Made by a program: the position numbers and the translations under genes. From the NCBI GenBank assembly GCA_927405585.1, contig CAKMJS010000108.1:1-34053 (forward strand): 34,053 nucleotides of DNA. Reading direction: 5' to 3'. The stretch's first letter is position 1. The number at the start of each line of letters is the position of its first letter. This document shows, in pieces, positions 3,103 through 33,941 of this stretch. Below the pieces are notes generated by a model. The model was not told where the DNA came from. It saw nothing but the letters and a program-made list of their open reading frames with translations, and searched no databases. Source of the DNA: an uncultured Desulfosporosinus sp. (GTDB lineage Bacteria > Bacillota > Desulfitobacteriia > Desulfitobacteriales > Desulfitobacteriaceae).

Positions 3103-3146
3103 CTTCTTTCTGACAAATTAGGAATACAGAGTTATGTGATTTAAGT
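3103..3146 (+). pseudogene. Degenerate duplicate of the spo0A 3' end
   Basis: This 44-nt block repeats the tail of spo0A with five substitutions. It still reads LLSDKLGIQSYVI and a stop, against LLADKLRIQSNVS in the gene. All the changes alter amino acids, as expected of a non-functional remnant. No spo0A similarity was seen upstream or downstream of the block. It probably marks a past duplication or insertion that brought in the gene at 2772. Confidence 0.8.
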
Positions 3147-8280: not shown

Positions 8281-8335
8281 CGATCTCCAGCTGATTTGAC
8301 AATTAAACCTCGGTAAGAAAAATTCCGAAAAAGTG

Positions 8336-8449
8336 AACTCGTTCTAAAGTTAAACATTCGAGACTTCGGTGGGGAGTATACCCCCACCGAAGAGAGACTG
8401 GGTAAGCACTCCCGCTTATAGAAGTGGGAGTCTTATACGATTGGATAAA
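8336..8449 (+). repeat. Two-hairpin palindromic repeat, copy A
   Basis: This 114-nt block aligns end to end with 13564-13680. Hairpin one is CTTCGGTGGGG/CCCCACCGAAG (11 bp, perfect). Hairpin two is ACTCCCGCTT/AAGTGGGAGT (10 bp, one wobble). Shared ends are AACTCGTTC and CGATTGGATAAA. There is no coding potential. The paired hairpins recall the ends of IS200/IS605-type elements or derived non-autonomous repeats, but no transposase is present to confirm it. It lies 55 nt downstream of the EamA stop. Confidence 0.8.
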
Positions 8450-8669
8450 TTTAAGTTAGATTTAAGATTAACTACAGCCACATTTAAGTATGAACACCGC
8501 AAATTGATTGAGAAAGCGTTTCAAAAGGCCAAGTGTACTTGGATGAGTAAATTTAACCTTTTGAGTTAGAATAATTGAAATGCGAACTTAGTATCTATTG
8601 TCTCCGAAAATGAGCTATCGATCTAGAAGGTCGTAGCGTAGGGAGCCCTTATCACTTCAGCATTAACCT

Positions 8670-8729
8670 GAACAAATATAAACAATAGTGAACAAAAACA
8701 AACAATATTGAATGAATATGAACGATTAA
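8670..8729. repeat. Three degenerate 20-nt tandem units
   Basis: The units are GAACAAATATAAACAATAGT, GAACAAAAACAAACAATATT and GAATGAATATGAACGATTAA, head to tail with no spacer. A 20-nt period is close to two helical turns, so equal sites would face the same side of the DNA. It lies about 750 nt before the first mrp gene. Confidence 0.6.
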
Positions 8730-9127
8730 AATAGGAATAGACTTATTCTATGTATTAAATTGAATTATAAGAAGCAACTAGGTAGCTAGCAAAAGATTTG
8801 TTTGAATAAATAGTAAATTAATGAGCGTTTATTTTAATTTATGAAACCTTAGCAGGGAATAAAGGAAACTTGTCGAAAGTATTAAATTTATATTTTAAGT
8901 TAGGATAATTCCTCTCAGCACATATTCATGTTTATTTGAATTATGGAGCAAATGTCTATCTGGAGATTAATTTTTATACAATTCTGAAAACTTGAATTAA
9001 TTGATTGTGTGGTTTAAACTATGAGTAGCTTGGACGACAATTTACATATGAATGAAGGGAGTACAAAGGAACGTCTTTGTTCAATAGTTCCATAAAAGTA
9101 GATTTTTGCCAAGTCCAGTTTCAATAA

Positions 9128-9196
9128 AGACTGTCTTCAATATAAACTTCGTTAGGGGATGCCGCATGCGGCATTGGTATTAAGGATAGTCTTTTT
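9128..9196 (+). terminator. Composite hairpin with U-tract in the mrp leader
   Basis: AAAGACTGTCTT (9128-9139) pairs with AAGGATAGTCTTT (9182-9194) as 12 continuous pairs including two wobbles. Inside is the perfect 16-nt palindrome ATGCCGCATGCGGCAT (9161-9176). TTTTTGTTT follows. The nearest upstream gene ends 850 nt away, so this is more likely a leader attenuator, or the end of a small RNA, than the EamA terminator. Confidence 0.65.
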
Positions 9197-9436
9197 GTTT
9201 ATCTATAGGTAAGTTAATATTCGTAGAGTGACTGAAGTAGACTAATAATGGGAGAGGTGTATTTTATAAAAAATAAAAGTAAAGAATGATAGTTGATACC
9301 AATTATGTCACAACGAATTCCGAATGCTATGAATGGGTTGAGACACAGAACTATTGACTCAGGGTAGAATACGAGTCGATTCACTATCATTGCACTAGTT
9401 ACCAAGAATAACAATAGATTGTGAGTTGTGGGAATT

Positions 9437-9922
9437 ATGCTTAGTTTTTTACTAACATTCATTTTGATGTTTATTTTTTGGTTTAGTTTATCAGGGCAAA
9501 CAGCACCAATGTTCCTAGTACTTGGGACGGTTTCTTGTTTGCTGGTAGCCTACTGGTCCCACGATTTGTTAATCAGCAAAATGTATAAGGGACCAAACCT
9601 AAGGAGAATCCTTTCAATAATAAAGTATTTCCCTTGGTTAGTCTGGGAGGTTGTGATCGCTAACAAGCATCTTATCTATCTTGTTCTGCATCCCAAGATG
9701 CCCATTGACCCTAGCATTGTAAGATTCAAACATACCTTAAAGACCGACGCTTGCATTACACTTTTAGCCAACTCAATTACCCTGACACCTGGAACTATTA
9801 CCATTGATGTCGACCGTGATGAATATATTGTCCATGCTGTGTCAAGGGAAACTGCCGAAGGGTTACTGTCCGGTTCGATGCAGGCAAAGATATACGAAAT
9901 TGAAGACGGTGTAAGGAGATGA
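9437..9922 (+). CDS. mrpE: Mrp-type Na+/H+ antiporter subunit E (MbhA-like)
   Basis: The product belongs to the MnhE/MrpE family. Two or three N-terminal hydrophobic helices are followed by a soluble domain containing LLANSITLTPGTITIDVDRDEYIVHAV, the family signature. The ATG at 9437 is chosen with a weak GTGGGA site; a GTG at 9428 would add three residues. Length (161) is normal. It opens the nine-gene antiporter cluster and overlaps or nearly touches the next gene. MrpE is a membrane subunit needed for assembly of the hetero-oligomeric Mrp complex. Confidence 0.9.
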   Translation: MLSFLLTFILMFIFWFSLSGQTAPMFLVLGTVSCLLVAYWSHDLLISKMYKGPNLRRILSIIKYFPWLVWEVVIANKHLIYLVLHPKMPIDPSIVRFKHTLKTDACITLLANSITLTPGTITIDVDRDEYIVHAVSRETAEGLLSGSMQAKIYEIEDGVRR

Positions 9923-9931
9923 GTAAGGCTT

Positions 9932-10201
9932 ATGTATAATATGTTTGATCTCGCTATATTCACGATTATATTATCTGCAGTGCTCATTCTTTATCGATTA
10001 GTGGTTGGCCCCTTTGTTTTTAACAGGATTTTGGCCGTTAATTTCTTCGGAACCAAAACAGTAGTAATCCTGCTCCTCATAGGATTCATGTATGGCAGAC
10101 CGGATGTTTTCATAGATATTGCCTTTGTTTATGTTTTGATTAACTTTACTGCTGTATTGGCATTTCTAAAATACGTTGAGTCTGGCCGTTTCGACCACTA
10201 A
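9932..10201 (+). CDS. mrpF: Mrp antiporter subunit F (MbhB-like)
   Basis: The 89-residue protein has three transmembrane helices and the MrpF pattern YRLVVGPFVFNRILAVNFFGTKTV and DVFIDIAFVYVLINF. Length is typical. It begins 9 nt after mrpE; an in-frame ATG at 9941 is an alternative. It is a small membrane subunit of the complex. Confidence 0.92.
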   Translation: MYNMFDLAIFTIILSAVLILYRLVVGPFVFNRILAVNFFGTKTVVILLLIGFMYGRPDVFIDIAFVYVLINFTAVLAFLKYVESGRFDH

Positions 10202-10232
10202 AAACAAAATTTAAGTAACGGGATGGGAAAAT

Positions 10233-10619
10233 ATGGATATAGATATTCGCGTTATTCTTACGGGGTTTTTCTTAGCCGTAGGATGTTTCTTGTTTCTAGT
10301 TGCCTCCATTGGGGTAATCAGGTTTCCTGATTTCTTTACTAGGATGCATGCCGCGGGCAAATCGGATTCTCTGGGGCAAGCTTGTATTATCATCGGACTC
10401 ATTATTTATTCGGGCTTTAACCAAGTAAGCCTGAAATTGCTGATGATAATGGTTACTGTTTTTATCATTAACACTACAGCAACTCACTATTTGGCCAAGG
10501 CCGCCTATATGAAGGGTGTTAAACCTTGGGTGAAGGGCTGCAAGTATGGGGAAGCCGACCCCTTTGCGATATCCTCTCCTACCAATGTGACCCGTAAGAA
10601 AGCCAAAGCTAATAAATAA
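10233..10619 (+). CDS. mrpG: Mrp antiporter subunit G (MbhC-like)
   Basis: The 128-residue protein has three helices and the MrpG core IGVIRFPDFFTRMHAAGKSD, which is nearly invariant in the family. A hydrophilic, Lys-rich tail ends the protein. A GGGATGGGA site precedes the ATG. It lies 31 nt after mrpF and completes the E-F-G block in the Mbh A-B-C order. Confidence 0.93.
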   Translation: MDIDIRVILTGFFLAVGCFLFLVASIGVIRFPDFFTRMHAAGKSDSLGQACIIIGLIIYSGFNQVSLKLLMIMVTVFIINTTATHYLAKAAYMKGVKPWVKGCKYGEADPFAISSPTNVTRKKAKANK

Positions 10620-10650
10620 ACACTAAAACGTGATTTATGGAGTTGAAAAT

Positions 10651-11691
10651 ATGACTGATTTAGCCATTCCGCTTTTTCTAGTGGTTTGTGGTATTGCAGT
10701 ATTACTCGTCAAGGATTTAATGAGTTCTATTATGATTTTCTCAGTCTACAGTCTGATGATGGCTATTGAGTGGTGCCGCCTGAATGCGGTTGACGTCGCT
10801 ATTACAGAGGCGGCTGTGGGTGCTGGAATTTCTACTGTTCTGTTTTTAGTGATCTTAGGACGTACGAAGTCTGTGGATGAGGGCAAAAAACATATAAATC
10901 TTCCTGCTCTGCTGATTACCGTTGCAGTTGCAGCAGTCTTGTTGTATGGAACCATCGACCTCCCCCATCTACGGGATGCGAGCATTGCACCCAATACCCA
11001 TGTAGTCACGCCCTATTACCTAGAGAACTCTTACGAACAGACAGGCCAGATTAACGTTGTTGCTGCCATTTTGGCCTACTTCCGAGGGTTTGATACCTTG
11101 TTCGAAACGACCGTGGTGGCCACTGCGGGTTTTTCTCTAATTATGCTTCTCAGGGCGGGAAACAAGAAACCTGGGGCCTTAGATAAAACCGGGGTAACGG
11201 CCATCTATAAGAAAACTCCCGCTAGTATAGGAGTTAAGCCAACTGCAACCTTTCCGGCTGTCTTAGATCAAGACAAAGATATCGTCAAGAGAACGGTAAC
11301 TAAATTTTTAATACCATTCATTCAGCTCTTTGGACTGTATGTCATAGTCCACGGAGAACTGGGCCCTGGCGGGGGATTTCAGGGTGGTGTGGTTCTAGGA
11401 GTTAGTATCATTATTTACTCCCTAGTATTTGGCTTCGAAGAGGCCAAACAGAGACTGTCTGTCAGGACAAAAGACCTGTTAGTTTCCACAGGAGTTTTGG
11501 TTTATGGCGGTATCGGTGTTATAGCACTTTTCTTAGGAGGTAACTACCTTCAGTATAGTGTGCTTTTGCCTGACCCCCAATTTGCCAGTATCGTTGGAAT
11601 TATGGGTGTTGAAATTGGTGTAGGTATAACTGTTGCCGCGGTCATGATCACCCTATTTTATGAAACAGTAAGGATAGATGCCAATGATTGA
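10651..11691 (+). CDS. Fused MbhD/MbhE-like and MrpB subunit
   Basis: The start is the ATG at 10651, with GGAG 8 nt upstream; a GTG at 10630 lacks a site. Residues about 1-80 match MbhD (DUF4040; VDVAITEAAVGAGIS), equivalent to the end of MrpA. Residues about 85-170 match MbhE, with FRGFDTLFETTVVATAGFS. Residues about 205-346 are MrpB (HGELGPGGGFQGGVVLG). Three polypeptides that are separate in Pyrococcus Mbh are therefore one 346-residue chain here. No full MrpA is encoded in the cluster. The fused subunit would link the antiporter subunits in the membrane. Confidence 0.87.
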   Translation: MTDLAIPLFLVVCGIAVLLVKDLMSSIMIFSVYSLMMAIEWCRLNAVDVAITEAAVGAGISTVLFLVILGRTKSVDEGKKHINLPALLITVAVAAVLLYGTIDLPHLRDASIAPNTHVVTPYYLENSYEQTGQINVVAAILAYFRGFDTLFETTVVATAGFSLIMLLRAGNKKPGALDKTGVTAIYKKTPASIGVKPTATFPAVLDQDKDIVKRTVTKFLIPFIQLFGLYVIVHGELGPGGGFQGGVVLGVSIIIYSLVFGFEEAKQRLSVRTKDLLVSTGVLVYGGIGVIALFLGGNYLQYSVLLPDPQFASIVGIMGVEIGVGITVAAVMITLFYETVRIDAND

Positions 11692-12055
11692 ATTATTAGC
11701 GAAATATAATTATTGGATTGTAATAATTCTGTTGACCACGGGGTTATACGGGGTAATGGCTAGAAAAAACCTAATTAAAAAGATTATCGGGTTAAACGTC
11801 TTTCAAACGGCAGTGCTCCTGTTTTATGTGTCTATGTCTAAAATCGAGGGTGGAACCGCGCCTATCCTCTTAAATCATGGTCATGGCCCACAACCTGTTT
11901 TCGATAACCCGCTACCCCAGGTATTAATGCTGACTGCCATTGTGGTAGGAATTAGCACTACTGCTGTGGCTCTGACCTTTGTCACGCGTATTTACCGTGA
12001 ATACGGAACCATAGAGGAAGATCAAATACTGGAGTTGAACAAGCAAAATGATTAA
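11684..12055 (+). CDS. mrpC: Mrp antiporter subunit C (NuoK-like)
   Basis: The 123-residue protein has three helices like NuoK/MrpC, with GLYGVMARKNLIKKIIGLNV and a C-terminal QVLMLTAIVVGISTTAVAL. It overlaps the preceding stop by 8 nt, showing translational coupling. The ATG at 11684 has AAGGA at a 9-nt spacing; the ATG at 11678 (two residues longer) would be too close. A His-containing loop (LLNHGHGPQP) lies between helices two and three, as in other MrpC proteins. Confidence 0.92.
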   Translation: MIELLAKYNYWIVIILLTTGLYGVMARKNLIKKIIGLNVFQTAVLLFYVSMSKIEGGTAPILLNHGHGPQPVFDNPLPQVLMLTAIVVGISTTAVALTFVTRIYREYGTIEEDQILELNKQND

Positions 12056-13565
12056 ACATTTGCCCGCTCTGTTAATAGTGATACCTCTGCTGGTAGCGAT
12101 TATTACCCCGATCATCGGTCGCCTACACTGGGTATTAAGTTGGTATGCCGTAACCATTACAACCTTCATAAGCTTTGTGATCTCCCTTTTACTCTTGCAA
12201 ACTGTCTCAGTGCAAGGGAGGATCAGTTATTGGATGAGTGGTTGGGAACCGCCCTTTGGTATTGAGTACTCAGTAGACTATCTGAATGCTTATGTGCTGA
12301 TTATTGTTTCCTTTATGGCTTTTGCTGGCGCTATCTACTCTAGGAAGAATATTGATGTCGAAATTGAAGATGAAACAAGAAAACCACTTTTCTACACGAT
12401 TTATCTGTTGTTTGTAACTGGTCTATTGGGTATGGTAGTTACTGGCGATATTTTTAACATTTATGTCTTATTGGAGATTGCCTCACTTGCCGGTTATGCC
12501 CTGATAGCTCTAGGTAAAAAGCGTCAAGCCTTGGTGGCGGCGTACAATTACCTGGTAATGGGCACGGTGGGGGCTACATTTTTTCTATTGGGCGTCGGTT
12601 ACCTGTATCTAATGACGGGTACCTTGAATATTGCGGACTTAGCCGTTAGATTACCGGAATTTTATGAGACCAAAGCGATTTTCACAGCCTTCGCGTTTAT
12701 CGTGGTAGGACTTTCGATTAAATTAGCTATTTTCCCACTCCATTTTTGGCTTCCTAATTCGTATGGTTATGCTCCTTCCGTCGTTAGTGCGGTTATGGCC
12801 GCCACGGGTGCCAAGGTAGCAGCCTATGTCTTAATTCGCGTTATGTATTCGGTATTCACTCCAGCGTTTTTCACCCATACGCCTTTCAACATCCAGTATA
12901 TCTTCTTGTTATTAGCGGTAGCGGCGATTCTTGTAGGGTCTATTATGGCCTTAGCTCAAACCGATATCAAGAAGATGTTAGCCTATTCGAGTGTTGGGCA
13001 AATCGGTTATATCGTGCTGGGTATTGCCTTAATGAATGTTACTGGTATGATGGGCTCTTTGATCCATCTGTTAAATCATGCCCTGATGAAGGGCGCTCTC
13101 TTCTTTGCAGTGGGTGCCGTGGTTTATAGAACCGGCTTATGCAGCATAGAAAACTTACGAGGTTTGGGTAAGAAAATGCCCTGGACCATGGCAGCCTTTA
13201 CGATTGCCGCACTTTCTATGACGGGTATTCCGCTGACGGTTGGTTTTATTAGTAAATGGTATCTGGCAGTTGCTTCAATTGAAAGTGGGATGTGGTGGTT
13301 AGTTCCCATAATTTTGTTAAGCTCCATTCTCACGGCGGTTTACTTCTGGAGAATTTTGGACAATGTATGGCTTAAGCCCGCACCGGGAGAAGAAAGCCAC
13401 GAACACGGACATGACTCCCATCAGAAGCCTGTTAAGTCAAATGATGCTCCGTTATCTATGGTAATCCCTACCTTTACAGTGGCTGTGCTGTGCCTAGTTT
13501 TCGGTCTCTTTGCCTATGCGCCAGTATCCATAGCAGAAAAAGCGGCCTTGATTCTTCTGAAGTAA
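12048..13565 (+). CDS. mrpD: Mrp antiporter subunit D, ion-translocating (NuoM-like)
   Basis: The 505-residue protein has about 14 helices and belongs to the proton-conducting NuoL/M/N family. Channel residues are present: E143 in NIYVLLEIASLAGY, K225 in GLSIKLAIFPLHFWLP and K256 in AATGAKVAAY. A His-rich loop (ESHEHGHDSHQKP) lies near residue 450. The gene overlaps mrpC by 8 nt. It probably carries the main H+ or Na+ path of the complex. Repeat copy B begins at its stop codon. Confidence 0.93.
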   Translation: MIKHLPALLIVIPLLVAIITPIIGRLHWVLSWYAVTITTFISFVISLLLLQTVSVQGRISYWMSGWEPPFGIEYSVDYLNAYVLIIVSFMAFAGAIYSRKNIDVEIEDETRKPLFYTIYLLFVTGLLGMVVTGDIFNIYVLLEIASLAGYALIALGKKRQALVAAYNYLVMGTVGATFFLLGVGYLYLMTGTLNIADLAVRLPEFYETKAIFTAFAFIVVGLSIKLAIFPLHFWLPNSYGYAPSVVSAVMAATGAKVAAYVLIRVMYSVFTPAFFTHTPFNIQYIFLLLAVAAILVGSIMALAQTDIKKMLAYSSVGQIGYIVLGIALMNVTGMMGSLIHLLNHALMKGALFFAVGAVVYRTGLCSIENLRGLGKKMPWTMAAFTIAALSMTGIPLTVGFISKWYLAVASIESGMWWLVPIILLSSILTAVYFWRILDNVWLKPAPGEESHEHGHDSHQKPVKSNDAPLSMVIPTFTVAVLCLVFGLFAYAPVSIAEKAALILLK

Positions 13566-13680
13566 CTCGTTCAGTTTAAAGTTATACATTGAGACTTCGG
13601 TAAGGGAGTCTACCCCACCGAAGCAGAGACGGGGTATCCACTCCCACTTGTTAGAAGTGGGAGTCTTACGATTGGATAAA
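13564..13680 (+). repeat. Two-hairpin palindromic repeat, copy B, inside the mrp operon
   Basis: It aligns with 8336-8449 from AACTCGTTC to CGATTGGATAAA. Hairpin two is a perfect ACTCCCACTT/AAGTGGGAGT. Hairpin one is imperfect (CTTCGGT helix kept, GGG/CCC offset). The left end abuts the mrpD stop codon. The right end is directly followed by GAGGTG, the ribosome site of the next gene. It therefore fills almost the whole intergenic space of an otherwise tightly packed operon. Confidence 0.82.
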
Positions 13681-13692
13681 GAGGTGATGAAC

Positions 13693-15177
13693 TTGGAAAT
13701 AATCGAATCAGCAAGACCGGTATATGCAGTTTTGGTTTCACTGTTGGCAGTCGTGCTAATAGGTAGTTCTGGCAAATACCCAAATCTAAGAGAATTGTGG
13801 ACAATGCTGGCCGCTTTGCTAAAATTTGGCTTGGTAGTTTCAATGTTGCCAACAATTCTGGCAGGTAAGGCTATTGAATATCATGTAATAACGGTTCTGC
13901 CGGGGCTTGACATTGCGTTTAGAGTGGATTCACTAGGTATGGTTCTTGCCTTAACAGCATCATTTTTGTGGATTATTACATCGATTTATGCAATTGGTTA
14001 CATGCGCTCCATGGATGAACATGCCCAGACGAGGTTTTTTATGTGTTTTGCCATAGCTTTGTCTGCCGCCATGGGTGCCGCTTTTTCAGCGAACGTATTT
14101 ACCCTGTTTGTCTTCTATGAAATGATTACTGTTTCTACCTTTGCTTTGGTGGCTCATGAAGAAACGCCTGAAGCGATTAGTGGAGCAAGGCGATACCTGG
14201 CCTATTTGCTGGGTACCTCAATTTTCTTCTTCCTTCCAGCTATGTTTTTAACTTACAATTATGCAGGAACTCTGGATTTTGCCAGTCAGGGGATTTTGGC
14301 GGGCAAAGCCTCCTATACAATCATTAGCATAATTTTTGTTCTCTATATTGCGGGCATAGCAAAAGCAGGGATGATGCCCTTTCATTCCTGGCTACCAGCG
14401 GCGATGGTTGCGCCGACTCCAGTAAGTGCCCTGCTACACGCTGTGGCAGTCGTCAAGGTCGGTGTTTTTACAATTATTCGGATTTTGCTTTTTGTGTTTG
14501 GCGTCGACCTGCTCACTGAAATTGGACTTGGCATCTATTTAGCCTATTTTGCCTCGTTCACCATTCTTGCTGCCTCCATCATGGCCTTAAAGCAGGATAA
14601 CCTTAAGTTAAGGCTAGCTTACTCTACAGTCAGTCAACTTTCTTACATTGTACTGGCAGTTGCCTTGCTAACTCCTAGTGGTATAACGAGCAGTATTATG
14701 CATATTACGATTCATGCCTTTGGCAAGATTACGCTCTTCTTTGTGGCAGGGGCAATTTATGTTCGAACTCACAAGAAGAAGGTGAGCGAGCTGAATGGGA
14801 TTGGTAGACAAATGCCCTTTACCATGGCAGCCTTTACCGTAGGAGCATTTTCTATGATAGCTGTACCACCCTTTGGTGGCTTTATCAGCAAATGGTATCT
14901 GGTTATGGGTACCTTTGAGGCTCACCTCTTGCCCATACTCGTAGTCATCGTGGCAAGTACGTTACTCAATGCTGCTTACTTTTTACCCATTATCTATGCG
15001 GCTTTTTTCAAGCAACCAGAGTCAGGAGAAGTGCATGGGATTGAGGAAGCTCCTGCATTAATGGTGGTGCCAATTCTAATTACGGCCACCGGTGTTCTGA
15101 TCTTATTCTTTGCATCGCCGCTTCTGCTTAACCTTGTTAAGATCGCTGTGGCCAGTGCTTTGGGAGGTGGCTATTAA
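13693..15177 (+). CDS. Second MrpD/NuoL-M-like antiporter subunit
   Basis: A TTG start at 13693 is preferred because GAGGTG (13681-13686) lies 6 nt upstream. The ATG at 13687 would have no spacing, and farther starts lie inside the repeat. The 495-residue protein has about 14 helices. It keeps the key charges E143 (FVFYEMITVSTF) and K222 (GIAKAGMMPFHSWLP), followed by the LLHAVAVVKVGVF segment. It should be a competent ion-pumping subunit. Its presence after mrpD makes this cluster larger than the Mbh A-H module. Confidence 0.9.
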   Translation: MEIIESARPVYAVLVSLLAVVLIGSSGKYPNLRELWTMLAALLKFGLVVSMLPTILAGKAIEYHVITVLPGLDIAFRVDSLGMVLALTASFLWIITSIYAIGYMRSMDEHAQTRFFMCFAIALSAAMGAAFSANVFTLFVFYEMITVSTFALVAHEETPEAISGARRYLAYLLGTSIFFFLPAMFLTYNYAGTLDFASQGILAGKASYTIISIIFVLYIAGIAKAGMMPFHSWLPAAMVAPTPVSALLHAVAVVKVGVFTIIRILLFVFGVDLLTEIGLGIYLAYFASFTILAASIMALKQDNLKLRLAYSTVSQLSYIVLAVALLTPSGITSSIMHITIHAFGKITLFFVAGAIYVRTHKKKVSELNGIGRQMPFTMAAFTVGAFSMIAVPPFGGFISKWYLVMGTFEAHLLPILVVIVASTLLNAAYFLPIIYAAFFKQPESGEVHGIEEAPALMVVPILITATGVLILFFASPLLLNLVKIAVASALGGGY

Positions 15178-32209: not shown

Positions 32210-32953
32210 TTGGAGATAAATCCTAAAAGCCAAATGCCATTACATGTTCAAATAAAGGATTGTCTTAATGAGGAGATTCGGCTTGGAAAGTTAGAAGGGA
32301 AGATACCCAGTGAAAGGGAACTTATGGATATTTTCTCTGTCAGCAGAACAACTGTCCGTGAGGCGGTTGCGGCATTAGATCGAGAAGGTGTCGTTGAAAA
32401 AAGACACGGTAAAGGGACGTTTGTTTGCTTGAGGCCAGTCCAAGAACAATGGTTAGGGAATATAAGTACATTCTCAGAAACAATTGCACGTGCAGGAATG
32501 AAACCAGGGGCCAAGTTACTTTCTAAAGAAATTAAGTCTTCGCCTCAATTTATAACAGATATGTTTGGCGGACAAGAATTCTACGTGATTGAACGATTGA
32601 GGTCTGCAGACGACAAAATAATTGCCATAGAGCGAAAGTGTTTTGAAGTAGGAGTTGGACTTAAATTAGCGAACTATAATTTAAATGATACAAATATTTA
32701 TAAGTTATTAGAAGCTAATCTCGGGATCACACCATGGACGGCTGAACAAACCGTCACGAGTAATAAACCTTCAAAGGAAGATGCTGCCTTGTTGGGGATA
32801 TCTAAAAATTCCAGCGTACTTGTCATCGAGAGACTGACTCGGGATCCCGAAGGTGTACTGATTGAGTTTGTTAATACGATCTTCCGAGCGGATAAATATT
32901 CGGTGAATATTCAAATGTCGCGTCATAGTAATTTTAACGGGGTAGGTCGCTAG
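32210..32953 (+). CDS. GntR-family (HutC subfamily, UTRA) regulator
   Basis: Translation starts at TTG 32210, with GGAG 9 nt upstream. The 247-residue protein has an N-terminal winged helix (about 8-75; PSERELMDIFSVSRTTVREAVAALDREGVVEKRHGKGTF). A UTRA effector domain follows (about 90-235; FYVIERLRSADDKIIAIERKCF). UTRA domains bind small metabolites. The operator core in its own promoter recurs before xsc, so autoregulation and control of xsc are likely. The ligand could be taurine, sulfoacetaldehyde or a related compound (inference). Confidence 0.9.
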   Translation: MEINPKSQMPLHVQIKDCLNEEIRLGKLEGKIPSERELMDIFSVSRTTVREAVAALDREGVVEKRHGKGTFVCLRPVQEQWLGNISTFSETIARAGMKPGAKLLSKEIKSSPQFITDMFGGQEFYVIERLRSADDKIIAIERKCFEVGVGLKLANYNLNDTNIYKLLEANLGITPWTAEQTVTSNKPSKEDAALLGISKNSSVLVIERLTRDPEGVLIEFVNTIFRADKYSVNIQMSRHSNFNGVGR

Positions 32954-32982: not shown

Positions 32983-33028
32983 AAAGAATCGGGTATTAAT
33001 TCGCAAGAATTAATACCCGATTCTTTTT
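32983..33028 (+). terminator. Terminator after gntR
   Basis: A perfect 20-bp stem (32983-33002 with 33007-33026) encloses a GCAA tetraloop and runs into TTTTT. It separates gntR from xsc. Confidence 0.95.
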
Positions 33029-33203: not shown

Positions 33204-33941
33204 ATGAGAATGGCAAAAGTTAGAATGACTCCCAGTGAAGCCATCGTGGAAACTCTATTAGCAGAAGGAGTAGAGCATGTAACGGGTATTCTCGGATCCG
33301 CATTTATGGATCTCTTGGATTTGTTCCCTACGGCTGGGATTGAGTTCATCCCAGTCCGTCATGAGCAATCAGCCGGTCATATGGAAGATGCTTTCTGCCG
33401 CGTAACCGGTAAATGTGGAGTCATCATTGGACAAAACGGTCCAGGAATCACCAATATGGTCACCTCCGTTGCTGCTGCTAACTCGGCCCATACTCCGATG
33501 GTTATTATTTGTCCATCTGCTGGTACTCCTACCGTTGGTTGGGATGGTTTCCAAGAGGCGGATACAGTTCAAATTTTCAAAGCGATCACAAAAGCAACCA
33601 TCCAAGTTCCTCATCCAAAGCGTGCCGCTGATTGCTTAAGAACCGCCTTCCGCATTGCTTATGCAGAACGTGGCCCCGTCCTTTATGATATCCCACGCGA
33701 TTACTTTTATGGCGAGATTGAAGAACAAATCTTAGAGCCCCATCAATACCGTGTCGACAATCGCGGCTGTGGTGCCGTAGAATCGCTCGATAAAGCGGCT
33801 GAAATCCTTTTCTCAGCTAAAAAACCTGTGATAGTCTCTGGCCGCGGAGTGGTCGATACCAAGTCCACTGGTTTTGTGGCAAAACTCGCTGAACTTCTCA
33901 CAGCTCCCGTTGCTTGTACTTATATTCCTAGCTGCTTTTGA
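33204..33941 (+). pseudogene. xsc: Sulfoacetaldehyde acetyltransferase, N-terminal part, interrupted
   Basis: The 245-codon frame matches the N-terminal and part of the middle domain of ThDP-dependent Xsc. It includes the cofactor-activating Glu54 ([14 protein letters not shown]), [13 protein letters not shown] and [24 protein letters not shown] precedes the ATG. Xsc turns sulfoacetaldehyde plus phosphate into acetyl phosphate and sulfite. The intact enzyme has nearly 600 residues. This frame stops after [13 protein letters not shown] +1-frame fragment at 33940 resembles the third domain, so roughly 190 residues appear to be missing. It may be a real deletion or a sequence-assembly fault. Confidence 0.75.

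Follow-up and report, generated by a model that had tools for sequence, protein, structure and literature searches.

A short noncoding element of the PATE type in Desulfosporosinus, probably mobilised in trans by an IS200-type transposase

A 34,053-nt stretch of DNA from an uncultured Desulfosporosinus sp. (assembly GCA_927405585.1, contig CAKMJS010000108.1, positions 1 to 34,053; hereafter the window, contig C108 in a draft genome of 4.48 Mb and 181 contigs) contained two copies of a short noncoding element, one of them inside an mrp antiporter operon. The element is very probably a transposable element of the PATE kind, which would be mobilised in trans by a TnpA transposase. The observations behind this assignment were its copy number, the conservation of its hairpins with compensatory changes, its target motif, clean insertion, the lack of inverted ends, identical copies within one genome, and the similarity of its left end (LE) to that of resident elements. 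With high confidence in this class, it represents a new family of the PATE type; its class of mechanism is an ordinary one. No description of the family was found in titles and abstract openings among the matches listed from the open-licence PMC literature on Desulfosporosinus and Desulfitobacterium repeats and on small mobile repeats.

Both copies lay on the minus strand when read in insertion sequence (IS) orientation. Copy 1 (8333-8444, 112 nt) was located between an EamA-transporter gene and the mrp operon and was delimited by a covariance model match at these same positions, by BLAST, and by the ends in an alignment of family members (alignment A1). Copy 2 (13562-13675, 114 nt) lay in the gap that separates mrpD from the next antiporter gene and was delimited by a covariance model match (13561-13675) and by the empty site in relatives. 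The two blocks reported in the first-pass annotation are real, with a similarity far beyond chance (83/117 positions identical; E of 5e-26 for the match of copy 2 to copy 1 in a BLAST search of the own genome), and only their ends needed to be moved to the family boundaries, since the end placed at 13680 takes in the 5-nt target ATAAA. On the minus strand this target reads TTTAT, at 13676-13680 for copy 2, where it is also present in the empty site of a relative (G016), and at 8445-8449 for copy 1, as judged from the sequence and the motif of 62 copies.

Copy number and taxonomic range

A BLAST search with copy 2 gave 45 places in the own genome at an E of ≤0.01, some of these being two parts of a single split copy. 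With a covariance model trained on 56 copies, 107 own-genome matches reached an E of ≤0.01 among the 150 of 1516 first-look candidates that were scored. The model's E-values are approximate, and borderline matches, like those located at module inserts (see below), may be partial or due to chance. Across the class, matches with an E of ≤1e-5 occurred in 38 of 82 genomes, comprising 28 of the 29 Desulfosporosinus genomes, 8 of the 16 genomes from elsewhere in the family, 2 of 28 from the rest of the order, and none of 9 from outside the order. The plasmid and phage collections contained no match to the element. Copies were found between many unrelated genes and in both orientations, and 18 of 19 full copies in the own genome lay outside open frames of at least 120 codons, the exception being the mrp copy, which is overlapped by an antisense frame. 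In one genome of a related genus (G054), all ten copies examined (L337-L346) were identical and occupied ten different sites, with TTNAT ahead of nine and T at position +1 in all ten; recent transposition is therefore suggested by these sequences.

A chance local duplication inside the contig, the explanation to which the first-pass annotation would have fallen back if further copies were lacking, agrees with the position of the two copies, 5 kb apart and in the same orientation. It is nevertheless scarcely conceivable: copies on three other contigs (C158, C49, and C76) gave copy 2 higher scores than copy 1 did, both window copies were nearer to the family consensus (88/116 and 90/115 identical) than to each other, and the genome-wide copies refute it.

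Insertion site and clean insertion

In IS orientation, the left flank was TTNAT in 50 of 62 distinct copies (TTTAT in 24, TTCAT in 17, TTGAT in 5, and TTAAT in 4), TNAT in 58, and AT in 60. The background frequency of TTNAT was 0.0078 (0.78% of positions in the loci examined), which gives a binomial P value of 8e-94. Of 95 distinct flanks after the right end (RE), 97% began with T, with no other base fixed there; the other 24 flank positions carried <0.2 bit, with ≤0.18 bit at the ten positions ahead of the target. These counts refer to copies with a recognisable CCAAT-like left end or TTCAC right end, strongly decayed copies being excluded.

Removal of copy 2 from the mrp junction in a script left a sequence that matched the junction of G016 without gaps through CCTCTTTAT|TTCAGAAG. 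A second relative (G017) was also gapless, and a third (G043) had one base missing. A second empty site, GTCAT|TC (GTCAT|TCAGG or similar), was seen in L155 and other relatives for a copy on contig C139. Target duplication was absent at the mrpD junction, as judged from the three relatives, and at the C139 copy, and at both sites the T on the 3' side of the element was already part of the target. Empty-site alignments for three further loci (L003, L006, and L012) were heavily diverged, and for copy 1 no orthologous sequence was found past the EamA gene in relatives. Terminal inverted repeats were likewise absent, the ends GTGAACTCG... and ...CGATTGG being noncomplementary on inspection of alignment A1. 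A miniature inverted-repeat transposable element of a DDE transposon, for which neither terminal inverted repeats nor target duplications were present, was rejected as a candidate.

Hairpin architecture and covariation

Read on the minus strand, the element follows TTNAT with CCAATCGTGAG, an LE hairpin (ACTCCCACTT..AAGTGGGAGT), a spacer, a middle hairpin (CTTCGGTGGGGG..CCCCCACCGAAG), an RE hairpin (GTTCAAC..GTTGAAC), and GAGTTCAC, after which the flanking T is reached. In window orientation, the consensus with its three hairpins is GTGAACTC-GTTCAACTAAAGTTGAAC-ATCGAGA-CTTCGGTGGGGG..CCCCCACCGAAG-CAGAGTACGGGGTACC-ACTCCCACTTGTAGAAGTGGGAGT-CTCACGATTGG. The length was 101-128 nt across 60 near-full copies, mostly 110-115 nt, which is too short to encode a transposase.

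The middle and second hairpins of the two-hairpin element described in the first-pass annotation were present in both window copies; a third hairpin of the intact consensus had been overlooked, the RE hairpin, which intact members have close to their GTGAAC end (GTTCAAC TAAA GTTGAAC). The LE hairpins were located by sequence and folding at 8408-8431 in copy 1 (ACTCCCGCTT/AAGTGGGAGT on the plus strand) and at 13640-13664 in copy 2 (ACTCCCACTT/AAGTGGGAGT on the plus strand), both being minus-strand features of the element. The middle hairpins, to which no strand was assigned, were at 8364-8392 in copy 1, by repeat search and folding, and at 13595-13623 in copy 2, where the hairpin was present in the minus-strand fold and the minimum-energy plus-strand fold was without it as drawn. 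The RE hairpin was damaged in both window copies in alignment A1; the corresponding region of copy 1 (8338-8360, minus strand) was degraded, with a gap in the alignment. With their RE hairpins degraded, both window copies are probably immobile. Relative to dinucleotide shuffles, RNA folding gave z-scores of -4.98 (copy 1) and -3.26 (copy 2) for the plus strand and of -4.00 and -2.84 for the minus strand.

Alignment A1 contained 56 of the 60 near-full copies, the four left out being L036, together with L246, L250, and L024 as the poorest. Among 52 distinct copies, standard pairs occupied 95.6% of the pair cells, and the near-terminal palindromes were paired in 98.4% (LE) and 94.4% (RE) of cells. 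Changes on both sides were seen in 16 pair cells, where shuffles averaged 3.3, and 0/500 shuffles equalled the data in paired cells, in changed cells, or in covariation score; 7/500 shuffles did attain the observed number of double-change pairs, and a one-column slide yielded 7 such pairs versus 5. The most frequent double change was from A-U to G-C in the RE hairpin; 10 sequences had it, and it may be a single event. Compensatory change, the absence of which had been named beforehand, together with that of further copies, as the sign of a chance local duplication, was thus found. The earlier remark that base changes mostly keep the second hairpin paired was correct, although the evidence is thin between the two window copies, which differ there by one A-U to G-U change and otherwise in the loop, and becomes clear over the 56 copies.

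The mrp operon junction

The mrpD-like gene upstream of copy 2 (12048-13565, plus strand; open frame with a Proton_antipo_M match) is followed by the gene for the next antiporter subunit (13687-15177, plus strand; open frame with Proton_antipo_M and Proton_antipo_N matches, start codon taken from the sequence). The assignment as an mrp operon is based on Pfam matches to Proton_antipo_M, Oxidored_q2, and MNHE. The nearest named relatives of MrpD were those of Desulfosporosinus sp. Soudan_1 (86%) and SRJS8 (81%). In the relative L066, mrpD ends in CTG AAA TAA AGAGGTGATG. The mrp copy is an insertion absent from relatives, located between AA and ATAAA at the mrpD end. As had been noted earlier, it starts at the mrpD stop and ends ahead of AGAGGTG-ATG; by comparison with L066 and L067, the stop TAA (13563-13565, plus strand) is now provided by the element's end (GTGA in the family consensus), and the original TAA is at 13677-13679. 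The C-terminal residues of MrpD, LLK, were unchanged, with the stop regenerated by the GTGA-type end, and the next ribosome site, formerly right after the mrpD stop, is now 114 nt downstream. The split of this tight gene junction is the one local effect that is likely; lost translational coupling or polarity at the junction is possible.

A new stop supplied by the GTGA end was also seen at L039, the copy on contig C76, as at 13562-13565 in the window. Insertions at gene ends numbered 7, 6, and 3 of 60 in the three registers (the L001 row being one base off), with no convincing stop-supplying bias.

The proposal that the copy tunes mrp stoichiometry or mRNA processing found no support. A structured regulatory RNA under selection is highly improbable, even though the hairpins fold well and covary and the mrp copy stands between two codirectional genes: the same junction was without the element in the three relatives, members of the family were beside unrelated genes in either orientation, no intrinsic terminator or promoter was found at the mrp copy, its end hairpin was degraded, and covariation is equally expected from recognition of the hairpins by a transposase. 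The window also had no Rfam family at the gathering threshold. A lax Rfam search of seven loci returned four matches, all below gathering, including one at L017 that overlapped an element copy (a Caenorhabditis snoRNA model, 23.6 versus 80 bits), and a known Rfam RNA was rejected as a candidate. Separately, L003, a locus that also carries an element copy, had a subthreshold TwoAYGGAY match at 151-314 on the minus strand (41.3 bits versus a gathering threshold of 43). A host function for the element received no support, and hairpins in intergenic gaps need not mean a regulatory function.

The candidate mobiliser and resident IS200/IS605 elements

For the transposable element of the PATE kind favoured here, we infer TnpA as the enzyme and a single-strand route. 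An IS200-type HUH tyrosine transposase (TnpA) would act in trans, recognising both near-terminal hairpins in single-stranded DNA and cutting after TTNAT and after GTTCAC; the excised strand would then be joined to the 3' side of another TTNAT, with no duplication of the target. Genes for Y1 transposases (PF01797) were present in 24 of the 29 genus genomes and genes for TnpB (PF07282) in 17. The IS605/IS1341 elements of the genus had right ends TTCAC, GTCAC, or TCAA. In four TnpB-only elements (L223, L224, L226, and L235), TTTAT or ATTAT was followed by CATC.TGCGGCGAGAAGACTCCCA or a close variant at the left end, and the right end was GAGGTTCAC; L226 and L224 had TTTAT ahead of them and ended in GGTTCAC. 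The LEs of L226 and L224 aligned with that of the PATE with a score of 24, against a shuffled mean of 10 (reached in 1/500 and 0/500 mononucleotide shuffles, respectively), and the LEs of four other element types scored 10-15. With a TTTAT or ATTAT target and a GTTCAC right end, these four elements might share a transposase with the PATE.

The IS200/IS605 lead of the first-pass annotation and its reading of a multicopy element were supported by the many further copies, the compensatory changes, and an insertion style of the IS200/IS605 type. Several observations weigh against mobilisation by TnpA: no tnpA with matching ends was found in the 21 IS200-type loci, the single fragment, or the 9 RAYT-type loci examined; the RE hairpin was dissimilar to those of the resident TnpB elements; the element-rich genome G022 (85% complete) was among those without a Y1 transposase match; and the orientation bias relative to replication that a single-strand mechanism would predict was only a trend in G008 (36/58 concordant, P of 0.087, weaker at stricter score cutoffs). 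A fixed T after the right end is, to our knowledge, unfamiliar among IS200/IS605 elements. None of the TnpA or TnpB elements examined had element copies as its ends, and the copies near L186/L236 and L212/L232 were separate insertions.

Spread by RAYT (TnpA_REP), a low-copy Y1 gene of many of these genomes, would make the element a REP/REPIN-like repeat. RAYT-type Y1 genes are present in much of the genus, and the element is palindromic, intergenic, and multicopy. This origin is nonetheless improbable. The surroundings of the nine RAYT-type loci (L032 and L199-L206) contained no element out to about 1.5 kb, the feet of the consensus end hairpins lacked GT[AG]G, the tetranucleotide given for canonical REPs in the part of PMC6006769 drawn on here, and ends conserved beyond the hairpins together with a target pentanucleotide fit IS200/IS605 better than REP. 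On the hairpin feet and the RAYT-type loci, REP/REPIN was rejected.

In Desulfosporosinus and its relatives, the PATE family is a sharply bounded, high-copy passenger of the IS200/IS605 type. Its target is defined, empty sites exist for it, and in one genome it appears to have moved recently, which makes it a ready system for the study of trans-mobilisation by HUH transposases.

Nested hairpin modules

Some copies contained nested hairpin modules of about 65 nt inside the middle hairpin, located in hairpin tips including those of the modules themselves. Such an insert, which combines left units of about 51 nt with right units of about 15 nt, was present in 6 of the 8 own-genome loci displayed (L012, L017, L019, L020, L025, and L027); L126-L136, L144, L154, and others also bore modules, some of which, as in L144 and L134, were outside a PATE. 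Left and right arms matched unit by unit, and in L136 three left arms paired by eye with three right arms in reverse order. Unequal arm counts were also seen by eye (3 left and 4 right in L020, 2 left and 3 right in L019).

The flank test included all 38 distinct modules that were near-complete and had 25 nt of flank at either end. Flank complementarity was 12.05, versus 10.17 for mispaired and 8.52 for random flanks (0/2000 permutations), with shared ancestry of the module flanks incompletely controlled. The hairpin-tip rule is not absolute, 53% of modules being above the 95th percentile of random flanks. Insertion of modules into hairpin tips, their own included, would produce nested stems with arms matching unit by unit. 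The modules could, as a tentative reading somewhat short of even odds, form a class of mobile DNA in their own right, one that recognises the tips of hairpins, inserts after CC at the palindrome apex, its own included, and targets DNA in a single-stranded or cruciform state; they would then be a bacterial counterpart of the SMR-A repeats of Haloquadratum. They are the more surprising part of the findings than the PATE family itself.

Other features of the window

A 44-nt direct repeat (89% identical) was found at 2488-2531 and 3103-3146, 615 nt apart. Its first unit spans the end of a response-regulator gene (1723-2529), which we take to be Spo0A-like. At 32983-33026, between open frames at 32210-32953 and 33204-33941, two 20-bp arms form a perfect inverted repeat around a 4-nt loop.

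Comparison with known systems

The features of PATEs were taken from the parts of PMC3119063 and PMC7290912 drawn on here. As described there, the PATEs of Haloquadratum walsbyi (PMC3119063) share with the present element near-terminal palindromes without inverted terminal repeats, the absence of target duplication, a length that leaves no room for a transposase, a short target in the left flank, and a second small repeat within the palindromes; their ends are also related to those of IS605-type transposons, a possible kinship of the present element that shows in its LE and GTTCAC but not in its RE hairpin. The likeness is one of described features, and the present element differs in its Gram-positive rather than haloarchaeal host, its TTNAT target followed by T, and its module-carrying middle hairpin.

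The IS1341-like elements L223, L224, L226, and L235 share TTTAT or ATTAT ahead of the left end, the LE motif ATCGTG..GAGA..CTCCCAC, and the right end GTTCAC, but they encode TnpB, are about 1.5 kb long, and have another RE hairpin sequence. ISDra2 of Deinococcus radiodurans, as presented in the portion of PMC2806898 used, also inserts 3' of a pentanucleotide (TTGAT) at its left end and has subterminal secondary structures; unlike the present element, it has its own tnpA and a fixed G at the third target position.

The modules resemble SMR-A of Haloquadratum, small repeats that insert in PATE palindromes and whose mobilisation is called enigmatic in the passages of PMC3119063 used here. SMR-A is about 110 bp long and has inverted terminal repeats, whereas the modules are about 65 nt long, have no evident inverted ends, and nest within themselves. 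They provide a bacterial handle on the question left open in Haloquadratum of how palindrome-targeting small repeats move.

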